The translations under genes were made by a program, and so were the position numbers. The notes under the pieces are model-generated. The model made no database searches and was not told the origin of the DNA. It saw only the letters and a program-made list of their open reading frames with translations. DNA of 42,829 bases from an uncultured Pelagibacteraceae bacterium. GTDB taxonomy: Bacteria; Pseudomonadota; Alphaproteobacteria; Pelagibacterales; Pelagibacteraceae. Shown in pieces: positions 10,014 to 13,515 of this stretch (position 1 is the stretch's first letter; every line of letters starts with the position of its first letter). The stretch is from positions 79,214 to 122,042 of the forward strand of contig CACMJB010000003.1 in the NCBI GenBank assembly GCA_902613915.1, written 5' to 3'.

Positions 10014-10904
10014 CTAATCGATCCAATCATCATATTTTTCTAGATTAAGGCTTACATAATTTGGTAATTCAGAAGGATCAATCTTTTTTAATATTGATTT
10101 TCCAGACCATTTATAACCTTTCTGATCAATATTATGATCATACATAACTCTTTTTTCTGCCATTAAATCTTTTAAGTTTTTTAAGTTAAGTCCACTTTCT
10201 TCATATTCATAGTGATGAGCAAAATTTAGTAATTTTTTTTCTAACTCTTCAGGAGTTCTTAGACAAGTAAAATGCCACCCTCCATCTTTTACAAACATTA
10301 GGTTTGAATATTTTTTCTTAGAGAATAGAGTATCAATACGCCAAATTGGATATTTCCTTCCTTTTATATTTCTTAGCCACTGCGGTGATAAAAAATTCTT
10401 ATATTTAACCGCTTTTGATCCTTGCCATACAAAATCTTTGTAAAAAAGATTTAATTTGTAATAGAACATTTTCTGCTCAAAAATGACAATATTATTTTTT
10501 ATATTTTGAAAATTTAATTTATTTAAATTTGGAATTTCATCTAGATCACTTATGATAATCAAATCTTCGTCAGCTGCATTTTTCATACCCTTAAAAAGAC
10601 ACTCTCTTTGAAAATAATCTCTTGCCATCCCATTTAAAATGAGCTTTTCACCTTTTTGATCTTTTGTGTCTTTATCTGAAAGTTGTAAAATATTATTTGG
10701 CTGATTATCAACAACAATATAATCAATTTTATCTTTAAATTTTTGAAATTTACGAATATCAAAATTTAATTTTTTTTTTGATCCATTGTGGGTGTATGTT
10801 GCTTCAGTGATAACAAATTTATTGACGAATTTATCAAGAGAATTCAATCTAATATCTAGAAGCAAATCTTCATCAAAATACATGAAGCAATCGTATATTT
10901 TCAT
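10014..10904 (-). CDS. Glycosyltransferase family 17 protein
   Basis: This 296-residue protein resembles GT17 (beta-1,4-mannosyl-glycoprotein N-acetylglucosaminyltransferase-like) enzymes: it begins MKIYDCFMYFDEDLLLDIRL, continues with VNKFVITEATYTHNG, and has an acidic DLDE motif at 120-123 (IIISDLDEIPN), the likely metal/nucleotide-sugar site. The later WHFTCLRTPEELEKKL block is also typical. There is no signal peptide or membrane span, so it should act in the cytoplasm on a nucleotide sugar; donor and acceptor cannot be read from sequence. It is convergent with lon and divergent, 52 nt apart, from the SDR-cupin-methyltransferase fusion, which may make its donor sugar. That link is inference. 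Confidence 0.82.
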   Translation of the reverse strand: MKIYDCFMYFDEDLLLDIRLNSLDKFVNKFVITEATYTHNGSKKKLNFDIRKFQKFKDKIDYIVVDNQPNNILQLSDKDTKDQKGEKLILNGMARDYFQRECLFKGMKNAADEDLIIISDLDEIPNLNKLNFQNIKNNIVIFEQKMFYYKLNLFYKDFVWQGSKAVKYKNFLSPQWLRNIKGRKYPIWRIDTLFSKKKYSNLMFVKDGGWHFTCLRTPEELEKKLLNFAHHYEYEESGLNLKNLKDLMAEKRVMYDHNIDQKGYKWSGKSILKKIDPSELPNYVSLNLEKYDDWID

Positions 10905-10956
10905 CCTATTTGAGTTATAGTAAAAAATAATATAAGTAAATAATTATCATTTAAAC
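10905..10956. promoter_or_regulatory. Shared divergent promoter region between GT17 and the sugar-enzyme fusion
   Basis: These 52 nt separate two divergent start codons and must hold promoters for both unless transcription enters from elsewhere. Plus-strand candidates are TTGAGT and TATAAG about 15 nt apart; on the minus strand, TTATTT-N18-TATAAC ends close to the GT17 ATG. The region is nearly pure A+T, so the hexamers are weak evidence. Co-regulation of the two genes is plausible. Confidence 0.35.
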
Positions 10957-13515
10957 ATGAAAAAAAAGATCGTAATTACTGGTGGCTTAGGATACATCGG
11001 TACGGAGCTATGTAAACTATATTCAGGGCTAAGCTGGCATCACAAAATAATAGTAATAGATAATAGATTCATATCAGAAAGAGTTAATCAACTTAGAAAC
11101 TGGAACATGGAATTTATTCAAGGAGACATACTTGATAAAGATTTGATAAAAAAAAATTGTAGTGATGCAGACATTGTTCATCATTTAGCTGGAGTGACAG
11201 AGGTGCCTAGAACAAAAAGTGAGGCATCAAAAGATCAAGATGAAAAGATAAAGGAGGTTGCAGAAAAAGGCACTCAAAATATTTTAGACGTTATAAAAGA
11301 TAAATGTAAAATTATTTTTCCTTCCACACATGTTGTTTATGAAGGTATAAGTGAAGTAAAAACCAACATAAAAGAAAATGAAACAACAAAACCAGTACTA
11401 TCTTATTCTACTTCAAAAGCAATTAACGAAGACCAATTAAAAAAATCAGGAAAAAACTACATTATTTTAAGACTCGGATCTGTTTATGGTTATTCAACTG
11501 ACTCTATGCGAATAGATATAATGCCAAATTTATTTTCAAAAATAGCATCCCAGAATGGAACTTTAAAATTGTTTGCAGGAGGTAGACAAATTAAAAGCCT
11601 TGTACCATTAATTGATGTTGCTAGATGTTTTAAATTTATGGAGGAAAATAATGAAATAACAACTGAAATATTTAATTTAACTAAAGACACACTTTCAGTA
11701 AAAGAGGTTGCCCAAATTTGTAAAAAACATAACCCAAAAATAACTTTAAAAGAAACTAATGATGAAGTTCCAAATTTAGGTTTTTCTTTATCAAACAAAA
11801 AGTTATTAAACACAGGTTTTGAGTTTCTTTATAATTTAGATCAAAATATAAAAGAAATGATTGAGAAATGGTCTAACCAAAATATTAAAAAAGATCTAGA
11901 ATATGTAAAGGATGGAGAGAACTTATTTAAAGATGAAAGAGGAACAATAAGTAATCACGAGCTTACAGAACCTATAAACTTAATCGGATTGATAGACTCA
12001 AAAAAAGGTACAATTAGAGCAAACCATTATCACCCACAACAGGAGCAAAAATGTCTTTTCACGAAAGGTCAAATAATTGAGGTATATCAAGATATAATCA
12101 ATCCTAATTCACCCAAAATAACCCAGGTAGTTAATGCAGGTCAGCTATCGGTTATTAAACCCAATGTTGCACACACTATGGTTTTTACAAAGGATACAAC
12201 ATTTTTAAACCTTGTAAGAGGAGAAAGAGATCATGAAAATTACGGGATAACACATACAATAAAACATGTTTTTGTTGACGAAAAAGAAAAAGATTTATTG
12301 TTAGAATGTTATAAATTTGACTGCAGGTCATGCGGAAATTTAAATTTAAAAAGAGTTGTTTCTTTAGGTTATCAACCTTTAGCAAATAATTTGTTAAATA
12401 AAAAAGATGAAAAGTGTGAACTTTATCCATTAGAAGTAAATTATTGCGATAAATGTCATAATTGCCAGCTCTCGGTATCAGTTAATCCAAAAAAAATGTT
12501 TTCAAATTATCTTTACACATCTTCAACCTCAAAAGTTTTCAGAGAACATTTTGTAGAAGCTGCTAAAAAATACTCCAAAGAATTAAAATTGAATAAAAAA
12601 AAATCTTATATTATTGATATAGGAAGCAATGATGGAGTTGCTTTAAAGCCATTTTTGGATTTAGGATTTAAAAAAGTTTTAGGTGTTGAACCAGCAAAAA
12701 ATTTAGCAAAACTTGCAAATAAAAATAAAATAAAAACATTTAATGGTTTTTTAGAAAAGAAAAACCTTAAAAAAATTAAAAAGAATGCTGACTTAATTTT
12801 AGCTTCTAATGTTTTTGCACATTCTAATAAATTAAAAGAGATGGCGGAATGCATGTTGAGTTTATTAAATAAAAAAGGAACAATAATTATAGAGGTTCAG
12901 TATTTAATGAATACTTTAAAAGATTTAACTTTTGATAATATATATCATGAACATTATAACTATTGGTCACTCACATCATTAATTAATTTCTTTAATCAAT
13001 TTGATGCAAAAATATATAAATCTGAGAGAGTAGATACTCACGGTGGATCAATCAGGGTTTATATTAAAAAAGATAATAAAGTAAAAATAGACGCTAGTGT
13101 AAAAAAAATGCTTTTAGAGGAAGATAATTTTGGAATTAAAAAATATGAAACTTATAAAAAATTCGGTGAAAAAGTTTATAAAATAAGAGAAAATGTCTTA
13201 CAAAATATTAAAAAACTTAAAAGCCAGAATAAAAAAATTATAGGTTTTGGCGCACCTGCTAAAGCAACAACTGCTCTAAATTTTTTCGGAATTAAAGACG
13301 AAGTAGACTTTATTGTTGAAGATAATAAATTAAAACACAAAAAATTTATACCCGGAGTAAAAATACCGATTAAAAGCAAATCTGAAATAAAAAATAAAGA
13401 TAATATACTTTTAGTTCTTGCATGGAATTTTTATGATTCTATAAAAAAAAATAATTCAAATTTATCTGATAAATTTGTAAATATTAAAAGCTTAGAAACT
13501 AATAATTTGAAATAA
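10957..13515 (+). CDS. Three-domain fusion: NAD-dependent SDR epimerase/reductase + cupin + sugar C-methyltransferase
   Basis: One uninterrupted 852-residue frame joins three recognisable parts. Residues 1-310 are an extended SDR sugar-nucleotide enzyme: GGLGYIG at 9-15, PSTHVVYEG at 122-130, and catalytic Tyr150-Lys154. Residues 330-450 are a cupin of the CapF C-terminal type: DERGT, NHYH at 356-359, KG at 370-371, and a distal His406. Residues 451-852 are a TylC3/NovU-type SAM-dependent C-methyltransferase: an N-terminal zinc site with Cys456, Cys459, Cys497 and Cys500, SAM motif IDIGSNDG at 553-560, HEHYNYWS at 664-671, THGGSIRVY at 694-702 and GFGAPAKATTALNFFGI at 773-789. No Met lies between 408 and 514, so the methyltransferase cannot easily be made separately by ATG initiation. 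The likely role is making a modified, perhaps C-methylated, NDP-sugar for a surface glycan; substrate unknown. Confidence 0.85.
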   Translation: MKKKIVITGGLGYIGTELCKLYSGLSWHHKIIVIDNRFISERVNQLRNWNMEFIQGDILDKDLIKKNCSDADIVHHLAGVTEVPRTKSEASKDQDEKIKEVAEKGTQNILDVIKDKCKIIFPSTHVVYEGISEVKTNIKENETTKPVLSYSTSKAINEDQLKKSGKNYIILRLGSVYGYSTDSMRIDIMPNLFSKIASQNGTLKLFAGGRQIKSLVPLIDVARCFKFMEENNEITTEIFNLTKDTLSVKEVAQICKKHNPKITLKETNDEVPNLGFSLSNKKLLNTGFEFLYNLDQNIKEMIEKWSNQNIKKDLEYVKDGENLFKDERGTISNHELTEPINLIGLIDSKKGTIRANHYHPQQEQKCLFTKGQIIEVYQDIINPNSPKITQVVNAGQLSVIKPNVAHTMVFTKDTTFLNLVRGERDHENYGITHTIKHVFVDEKEKDLLLECYKFDCRSCGNLNLKRVVSLGYQPLANNLLNKKDEKCELYPLEVNYCDKCHNCQLSVSVNPKKMFSNYLYTSSTSKVFREHFVEAAKKYSKELKLNKKKSYIIDIGSNDGVALKPFLDLGFKKVLGVEPAKNLAKLANKNKIKTFNGFLEKKNLKKIKKNADLILASNVFAHSNKLKEMAECMLSLLNKKGTIIIEVQYLMNTLKDLTFDNIYHEHYNYWSLTSLINFFNQFDAKIYKSERVDTHGGSIRVYIKKDNKVKIDASVKKMLLEEDNFGIKKYETYKKFGEKVYKIRENVLQNIKKLKSQNKKIIGFGAPAKATTALNFFGIKDEVDFIVEDNKLKHKKFIPGVKIPIKSKSEIKNKDNILLVLAWNFYDSIKKNNSNLSDKFVNIKSLETNNLK

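Follow-up and report, generated by a model that had tools for sequence, protein, structure and literature searches.

The stretch of DNA analyzed here (the window; 42,829 nucleotides) corresponds to positions 79214-122042 of contig 3 (CACMJB010000003.1) in the 1.0-Mb genome of an uncultured SAR11 bacterium of the family Pelagibacteraceae (assembly GCA_902613915.1). Within it, a short-chain dehydrogenase/reductase (SDR), a cupin, and a sugar C-methyltransferase are encoded by a single gene, which lies next to a divergently transcribed gene for a family 17 glycosyltransferase (GT17) (Table 1). The fusion begins with ATG and has zero internal stops. A preliminary description made from the letters of the window had proposed that a single frame of 852 codons encodes one polypeptide with three domains whose active sites are intact. 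This was confirmed by the open reading frame (ORF), Pfam matches, structural models, and a motif check, in which every motif previously named (GGLGYIG, Y150/K154, NHYH at residues 356-359, H406, C456/C459/C497/C500, and GFGAPAKA) was found in the translation. The presence of three enzyme domains in one SAR11 protein is therefore a confirmed observation.

Table 1. Features of the fusion gene and its divergent neighbor (positions within the window)
Feature	Position	Strand	Remarks
SDR-cupin-C-methyltransferase fusion gene	10957..13515	+	852 codons; one frame kept in 80/80 named loci
SDR domain, residues 1-311	10957..11889	+	TGGLGYIG, T124/H125, Y150, K154; Pfam Epimerase; nearest solved structure Cj1427 (6vo6)
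Cupin domain, ~residues 323-436	11923..12264	+	R354, H357, H359, Q364, K365, H406 invariant
Cupin-methyltransferase joint, residues 437-454	12265..12318	+	Conserved; without conserved start codon; dN/dS 0.033 (437-455)
Sugar C-methyltransferase, residues 455-838	12319..13470	+	Zn site C456/C459/C497/C500; TcaB9-matching Y518/H622/Y663/E665/H666
GT17 glycosyltransferase, 296 aa, divergent neighbor, likely user of the sugar	10014..10904	-	PF04724 57.4 bits, cut-off 26
A+T-rich intergenic gap, 52 bp, presumed start signals of both divergent genes (putative function)	10905..10956	.	Sequence

Domain architecture was determined using Pfam, in which the SDR (Epimerase, residues 5-241) and three methyltransferase parts exceeded their curated cut-offs: Methyltransf_13 (zinc; 456-515; 59.2 bits vs 31.3), Methyltransf_23 (533-686; 54.6 vs 27), and Methyltransf_14 (694-838; 144.5 vs 23.5). 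The cupin stretch scored below the cut-offs of Cupin_2, PF14667, and PF00908 and was recognized by its fold; its best score was obtained with the RmlC-type model PF00908 (17.7 bits vs 27), and the CapF model PF14667 gave 17.2 bits (vs 28.7). An NCBIfam scan of the fusion protein returned no model at its cut-off. A model of the whole protein (mean predicted local distance difference test score (pLDDT) 78, predicted template modeling score (pTM) 0.59) contained three predicted folded domains. The earlier proposal to look for domains facing each other was answered only in that respect, as a pTM of 0.59 makes the domain packing unreliable and does not establish it. Fusion by itself does not establish it either, and the channeling of a keto-sugar intermediate that the preliminary description had inferred is hence no more than a possibility.

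For the methyltransferase, residues 447-851 matched KijD1, TcaB9, and MtmC, whose structures are titled sugar C-3'-methyltransferases, with VIA Z scores of 45-46.5 and 28-30% identity. MtmC, which we take to be the TylCIII enzyme of S. argillaceus, is the nearest solved methyltransferase by sequence. Five active-site residues of TcaB9 that were mutated in its structures (Y76, H181, Y222, E224, and H225, numbered after a two-residue chain offset counted by hand) align with Y518, H622, Y663, E665, and H666. The domain suggested in the preliminary description to be of the TylC3 type was thus borne out as one of the TylC3/TcaB9 kind (Z ~46, ~28% identity). The whole fold and the zinc and catalytic residues are shared with the TylC3, TcaB9, MtmC, and KijD1 sugar 3-C-methyltransferases, which are separate proteins, whereas the enzyme described here forms the C-terminal part of a longer chain.

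For the SDR (~residues 2-309), comparison of the full model placed Cj1427 first (Z 26.4, 25% identity, root-mean-square deviation 4.5 over 279 residues), with 2hun tied at Z 26.1. Cj1427 was the top SDR both by sequence and by fold, and CapF did not appear in the lists, which does not prove that CapF is more distant. An assignment of the SDR as a nucleoside diphosphate (NDP)-sugar 4,6-dehydratase was not supported: the RmlB equivalog TIGR01181 gave 63.9 bits against a cut-off of 365.1, and the Asp-Glu that follows Thr in the dehydratase pattern STDEVYG does not occur after T124. Cj1427 is described as a C4-dehydrogenase that acts on GDP-heptose and binds NADH tightly (PMC10680097), and with this enzyme ranking first, C4 oxidation, reduction, or both would be possible for the SDR of the fusion. 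The two share chemistry around a C4 ketone. They differ in that identity is only ~25%, that the Cj1430 epimerase and the C4-reductase are separate proteins, and that C-methylation is not mentioned in the part of that source consulted (PMC10680097).

Since the VIA and Foldseek lists for the full model did not cover the cupin, it was folded separately (pLDDT 82.4, pTM 0.79) and consisted of strands throughout, except for one C-terminal helix. When this model was compared to the PDB using Foldseek, ranks 1-5 were all CapF (E 1.7e-8 to 2.2e-7, TMq 0.65-0.71). The earlier label of a CapF-like SDR-cupin therefore stands for the cupin, for which CapF is the best fold match, but less so for the SDR, which appears to be nearest to Cj1427. 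CapF (Cap5F of Staphylococcus aureus) likewise has an SDR followed by a cupin on one chain, with the same cupin fold; it has no methyltransferase, and the fusion differs further in an SDR that appears nearer to Cj1427, in its PF14667 score, and in having Gln in place of a Glu. The Zn2+ ligands of CapF are His, His, Glu, and His. H357, H359, and H406 are present in the fusion, and in the sequence alignment Gln364 stands where CapF has Glu, five residues past the HxH motif, with Glu363 adjoining it in 91 of 95 aligned proteins (see below). H357 and K365 also align with a His and a Lys of 2b9u and 1wlt, a weak match (E 0.003-0.004); in RmlC-type epimerases, a catalytic His and an enolate-stabilizing Lys are described (PMC7949155).

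The distribution of the fusion was examined in several sets of genomes. Of 217 relatives found in genome contigs, the best 80, all named Pelagibacteraceae loci, were kept (the other 137 were left out), and in all 80 loci the fusion was one open frame of 848-880 codons. A scan of 61 genomes (its own, 36 of the same genus, and 24 of the same order but another family) recovered a full-length single-frame fusion in 24 of the 37 same-genus genomes (own included) and a piece in seven more, of which the six that were retrieved are all truncated by a contig end. Scan rows flagged with one internal stop proved to be closed ORFs of the expected size, and the fusion was seen in none of the 24 genomes of the other family. 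The same-genus and named-loci counts overlap (e.g., L004 and L033, which match at equal identity on contigs of equal length) and are thus not independent. Among 197 genomes sampled evenly across the order, 26 carried a full-length fusion, of which 15 belonged to the genus of the window and nine and two to two other genera. More widely, at E ≤ 1e-110, the genome of the window was the only match among 385 genomes of the class, and in 398 genomes of the phylum it was joined by G704 and G646, both matching over the cupin and methyltransferase only; these two samples overlap and include a few Pelagibacteraceae, and the threshold misses weaker relatives. A profile of the cupin alone gave no hit at E ≤ 1e-25 in 398 genomes, a negative that lacked a positive control and carries no weight.

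Selection was estimated from 12 independent SAR11 pairs at ≥ 90% identity, with a proportion of synonymous differences of 0.32-0.46 (high but unsaturated). The ratio of non-synonymous to synonymous change (dN/dS) was 0.067 for the SDR, 0.085 for the first joint, 0.023 for the cupin (the most constrained part of the fusion), 0.033 for the second joint (residues 437-455), and 0.070 for the methyltransferase, and both joints are under purifying selection. Start codons were surveyed in 89 proteins, window included. In the window protein, Met occurs at 408 and again only at 514, as had been remarked; this does not hold as a family rule, with an ATG at positions 425-475 in 17 of the 89 proteins (the window not among them). 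A separate internal start for the methyltransferase was rejected as a conserved feature, given that 72 of the 89 had no ATG at 425-475 and that GTG or TTG at 435-460 occurred in 36. Taken together, it is vanishingly improbable that two or three genes were merely joined by a stop or frameshift lost in assembly: split versions are known from other genomes and viral contigs, but the single frame in all 80 kept loci, its full length in most same-genus genomes, the purifying selection over the joint, and the lack of a conserved internal start all speak against it. An assembly artefact was accordingly rejected for the family on the agreement of many genomes and the dN/dS of the joint, and a stop or frameshift collapsed around codons 440-460, which the preliminary description had considered, is ruled out at the same level. 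Separately, in a 98%-complete genome of the same genus (L132; G077:C10:1-20000), the fusion ends after ~259 residues, with GT17 and lon next to it, and ~14 kb away there is an inverted piece that matches residues 225-332; this reflects either a natural disruption or a mis-joined assembly.

Active-site residues were read at 25 positions in 95 proteins, consisting of the window, the 80 SAR11 loci, eight viral loci (of which L113 and L119 are alike), phage LR756502, four proteins from a second SAR11 genus, and L122, whose two genes were joined by an X. Twenty-two positions were invariant: G9, G12, G15, H125, Y150, and K154 in the SDR, R354, H357, H359, Q364, K365, and H406 in the cupin, and C456, C459, C497, C500, Y518, H622, Y663, H664, E665, and H666 in the methyltransferase. 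The other three were nearly so (G10 in 94, T124 in 93, and E363 as given above). Loss of active-site residues in close homologues, raised earlier as a possible objection, was not seen in SAR11 in this alignment. A set of 38 distinct viral proteins, which overlaps in part with the 95, contains some sequences truncated at contig ends and one that is broken; catalytic residues were kept in this set wherever a letter exists, and the six cupin residues were present in 38 of 38. The zinc-site cysteines were replaced in several of these 38 (456 in five, 459 in seven, 497 in two, and 500 in seven).

Relatives in which the same parts are split or extended were also recovered. In the closest split form, the viral L122, an SDR-cupin of 450 amino acids (59/61% identity) and a methyltransferase of 403 amino acids (50%) overlap by 4 bp. 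L210 has an SDR gene (54%), one intervening gene, and a fused cupin-methyltransferase (49%). Three neighboring genes in the same order (SDR, cupin, methyltransferase) were found in L127, from the SAR11 family, and in L124, from a different member of the phylum. The TAG that ends the L124 cupin is followed immediately and in frame by the ATG of the methyltransferase, and in L125 a lone TGA interrupts the frame common to cupin and methyltransferase. In L196 and L204, the SDR-cupin gene has a methyltransferase gene overlapping it, by 13 and 29 bp (counted from the first possible start), and in L198 an FkbM methyltransferase stands between the SDR-cupin and a distant C-methyltransferase. In two viral loci (L203 and L207), a methyltransferase (50-53%) adjoins an SDR gene that is only distantly related (25-27%), and there is no cupin match. 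At the other extreme, a 134-kb viral contig encodes a four-domain chain of 1124 amino acids, in which the SDR-cupin-C-methyltransferase is followed by a C-terminal FkbM domain (L188:2995-6369). From these arrangements, the domains look to have been joined by fusion of neighboring or overlapping genes.

The fusion was also found in phages. A first viral scan returned 10 loci (51-59% identity to the fusion), and a second, in which an alignment was used to query IMG/VR, returned 64 loci that include the first ten records. A single ORF with parts of all three domains was present in 43 of the 64 loci and was at least 848 amino acids long in 39 of these; of the four shorter ORFs, L174, L186, and L193 are cut by a contig end and L183 (same record as L120) is frameshifted in the SDR part. 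Several loci are copies, leaving the 38 distinct proteins described above. The remaining 21 loci held the methyltransferase alone at > 38% identity (10), an SDR-cupin (five), a cupin-methyltransferase (two), the L122 form (one), or none of these (three). In an annotated collection of 50,697 phage records, the sole match covering at least 80% of the fusion was LR756502.1 (642,428 bp; 55% identity); LR756502 has been treated as a megaphage of a freshwater lake (PMC9723777), and a complete 642-kb phage has been described (PMC7162821). What had been treated as a local oddity is thus a conserved family of Pelagibacteraceae that also occurs in T4-type and huge phages.

In a tree of 29 rows, outgroups fell on very long branches and L122 sat on a long branch. 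A second, midpoint-rooted tree was built from 51 proteins, 36 of them from viruses and 15 from SAR11. A single branch with a support of 100 separated viral from SAR11 proteins, and diversity was greater among the viral ones. Transfer between SAR11 and phages, whichever its direction, consequently looks old and rare. Bacterial islands miscalled as viral, leaving an enzyme that is bacterial only, would be a very improbable explanation. Neither a Gp23 T4-type capsid nor a terminase match was found in 34 of the 50 virus and phage records searched, but many of these are fragments, and such a match above cut-off was present in 16 (4/11 and 12/39), 14 of them with a fused gene and LR756502 among them; the position and diversity of the virus proteins in the tree argue against it as well.

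The surroundings of several viral loci were observed in addition. In phage contigs L113 and L119 (L113/L119:4243-11459), a PLOD-type glycosyltransferase domain lies directly upstream of the fusion (L113), and GT2 and a collagen-repeat protein lie downstream (L119), so that the sugar of the fusion might decorate a collagen-like fiber; L190 also has a collagen-like neighbor. Collagen-like neighbors occur in five of 72 viral loci, represent two distinct sequences, and were not used as evidence. Three IMG/VR contigs in which neither Gp23 nor a terminase was matched have surroundings that resemble surface-glycan islands: the genes close to the fusion encode NeuB and a DegT-type aminotransferase in L114, a sialyltransferase-family GT29 and a carbamoyltransferase in L116, and a PseB-like protein below cut-off in L121.

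Of the 77 SAR11 loci that could be scored, 60 had GT17 as the divergent neighbor of the fusion, four had it elsewhere, and 13 had none (the remaining three of the 80 had too little sequence to score). The surroundings also included lon (68/77) and Nuo genes (57/77). In phages, GT17 lies ≤ 3 kb upstream in 11 of the 43 fused loci and directly before the fusion in LR756502, where it was also the sole match of the window GT17 in a tblastn search of the 50,697 phage records. This linkage provides the best evidence that GT17 and the fusion share a pathway, and it is not obligatory. An upstream gene of 230-246 amino acids was rejected as a linked nucleotidyltransferase, because its identity differs by locus (PLOD-type glycosyltransferase, GT2, transaldolase-like, or no match). 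In the genome of the window, RmlA, RmlB, and CDP-glucose 4,6-dehydratase were found above their cut-offs, and a GMP_PMI-like guanylyltransferase fell slightly short (354.1 vs 372.95). The RmlB and RmlA genes adjoin two genes of 178 and 233 amino acids, possibly RmlC and RmlD, in which case RmlA and RmlB may serve rhamnose alone. Genome content does not single out one nucleotide, since the dTDP, CDP, and GDP routes are each present in part.

Based on the domain assignments and gene linkage, the fusion is probably a single-chain enzyme with three activities that makes a nucleotide-activated, C-methyl-branched sugar, which GT17 would transfer. An NDP-4-keto sugar would come from a dehydratase on another chain or be formed by the SDR of the fusion. 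The cupin would epimerize the carbon beside the ketone, the methyltransferase would add a methyl group from S-adenosylmethionine (SAM) next to the ketone via an enolate (the catalytic pair would be H666/Y663, as judged from TcaB9), and the SDR would reduce the C4 ketone with NAD(P)H last, as in CapF. GT17 would then place the branched sugar on a glycan, at the cell surface in SAR11 and on the virion or the host surface in phages. The role as a surface sugar, which the preliminary description had also proposed, is suggested by context, namely the neighboring GT17. The order epimerization, C-methylation, reduction appears likeliest, because it follows from the order in CapF and from the C-3'-methylation chemistry of the TcaB9 type, together with intact sites; in CapF, the cupin is described as epimerizing first and the SDR as reducing after (PMC5393024). 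We infer the direction of the SDR, the nucleotide, the position of the methyl group, and the glycan.

A number of observations weigh against this proposal. A CapF-type zinc site in the cupin is doubtful because an invariant Gln occupies the position of the CapF Glu, and the top-ranking relative of the SDR is a C4-dehydrogenase and no ketoreductase. If methylation takes place at C3, a C3 epimerase seems redundant. NovU is a related sugar C-methyltransferase, and the NovU/NovW route to noviose involves C5 chemistry; by this comparison, chemistry at C5 would fit better than C3 epimerization before C3 methylation. Some phage forms are without zinc-site cysteines yet retain the methyltransferase catalytic residues. 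Several split loci are imperfect counterparts: the SDRs of L127 and L124 are only 23-24% identical to that of the fusion, the SDR of L127 is RmlB-like (299 bits vs a cut-off of 365) and hence probably a dehydratase that does not correspond to the SDR of the fusion, and the methyltransferases near the SDR-cupin in L196, L204, and L198 are distant (25-28% identity), so that these are not the same parts unjoined. Finally, no piece of the fusion was found in six of the 37 same-genus genomes (completeness 59-84%), and in 17 of the 77 scorable SAR11 loci GT17 is not the divergent neighbor.

Two other accounts of the activity were weighed against a three-activity enzyme with a final reduction. A redox-neutral cycle, in which the SDR would oxidize C4 of an NDP-hexose with bound NAD+, the cupin and methyltransferase would act, and the SDR would return the hydride so that only SAM is used, is possible though unlikely. 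Fusion would hold the keto intermediate close to the reduced SDR, but extended SDRs change direction easily, identity to Cj1427 is low, and dehydratases are available in the own genome. The tight hold of Cj1427 on NADH (PMC10680097) is consistent with such a cycle, as is the precedent of GDP-mannose 3,5-epimerase, for which oxidation and double epimerization in one SDR are reported in the material consulted, whereas CapF and the RmlC/D fusions use the SDR as a reductase after the epimerase (PMC5393024, PMC6556577). It seems distinctly improbable that one or two domains are idle (e.g., with a cupin that only binds substrate or joins subunits), which would leave a chain that acts in effect as a bifunctional methyltransferase/reductase. 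The replacement of the CapF-type Glu by Gln, the cupin-free L203 and L207, and a 4-ketoreductase activity reported for the TylCIII enzyme of S. argillaceus (source cited in PMC3539893) would agree with this, but the cupin has the lowest dN/dS of the protein (0.023), and its key residues are invariant in the 95 proteins and in the 38 viral ones, sets that overlap. A further extension, in which the fusion would be a transferable one-gene synthase, common to an abundant marine bacterial family and to T4-type and huge phages, that converts an ordinary NDP-hexose to a C-methyl-branched sugar with SAM only, would form with GT17 a two-gene phage cassette for virions or the host surface, and would have been gained once by SAR11, is a long shot.

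Comparable systems combine some of these steps. Branched sugars are known mainly from antibiotics and a few surface glycans. On plasmid p1 of Desulfolutivibrio sulfoxidireducens, epimerase, methyltransferase, and SDR genes lie close together (rfbF-rfbG-RmlC-CMT-acyltransferase-SDR); they differ in being separate genes with a true RmlC (PF00908 194 bits), and rfbG is a CDP-glucose 4,6-dehydratase. The haptophyte RmlC/D fusion and the trifunctional RHM likewise join consecutive NDP-sugar steps, including epimerase and reductase, but make rhamnose and include no methyltransferase, a term with a count of zero in the source (PMC6556577). The virenose route of Coxiella similarly comprises C-methylation and then reduction of a 4-keto-6-deoxy sugar of a surface glycan, with separate enzymes and as an in silico proposal, according to the part of PMC3539893 consulted.

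No description of an SDR-cupin-C-methyltransferase was found in the open-access literature searched, partly with other aims and with sources consulted in part, and in the main text of a 2025 study of SAR11 O-chain clusters, assessed by a term count, the words "epimerase" and "methyltransferase" are absent. Within the same bounds, no characterized case came to light, in agreement with the earlier remark that the three-part architecture was not known as that of a described enzyme. The parts, and fusions of NDP-sugar steps, are known; for the addition of the C-methyltransferase, the searches showed no described case. If the proposed function is true, branched sugars are the product of a single gene in SAR11 and phages, which offers a testable way into the chemistry of SAR11 surface glycans and into glycosylation encoded by phages. 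Split, two-gene, fused, and four-domain forms together make up a natural series well suited to asking what a pathway gains from fusion.

Two further C-methyltransferase genes were observed apart from the fusion. A second, separate homologue (31% identity) is encoded in the genome of the window (L002; G000:C15:1526-2731), on a 13-kb contig that also carries a PseB gene. In a genome of the same bacterial family (G181; L133:3420-5351), one frame of 643 amino acids joins a C-methyltransferase to the greater part of a DegT/DnrJ/EryC1 aminotransferase domain, which may be another fusion of this methyltransferase family.

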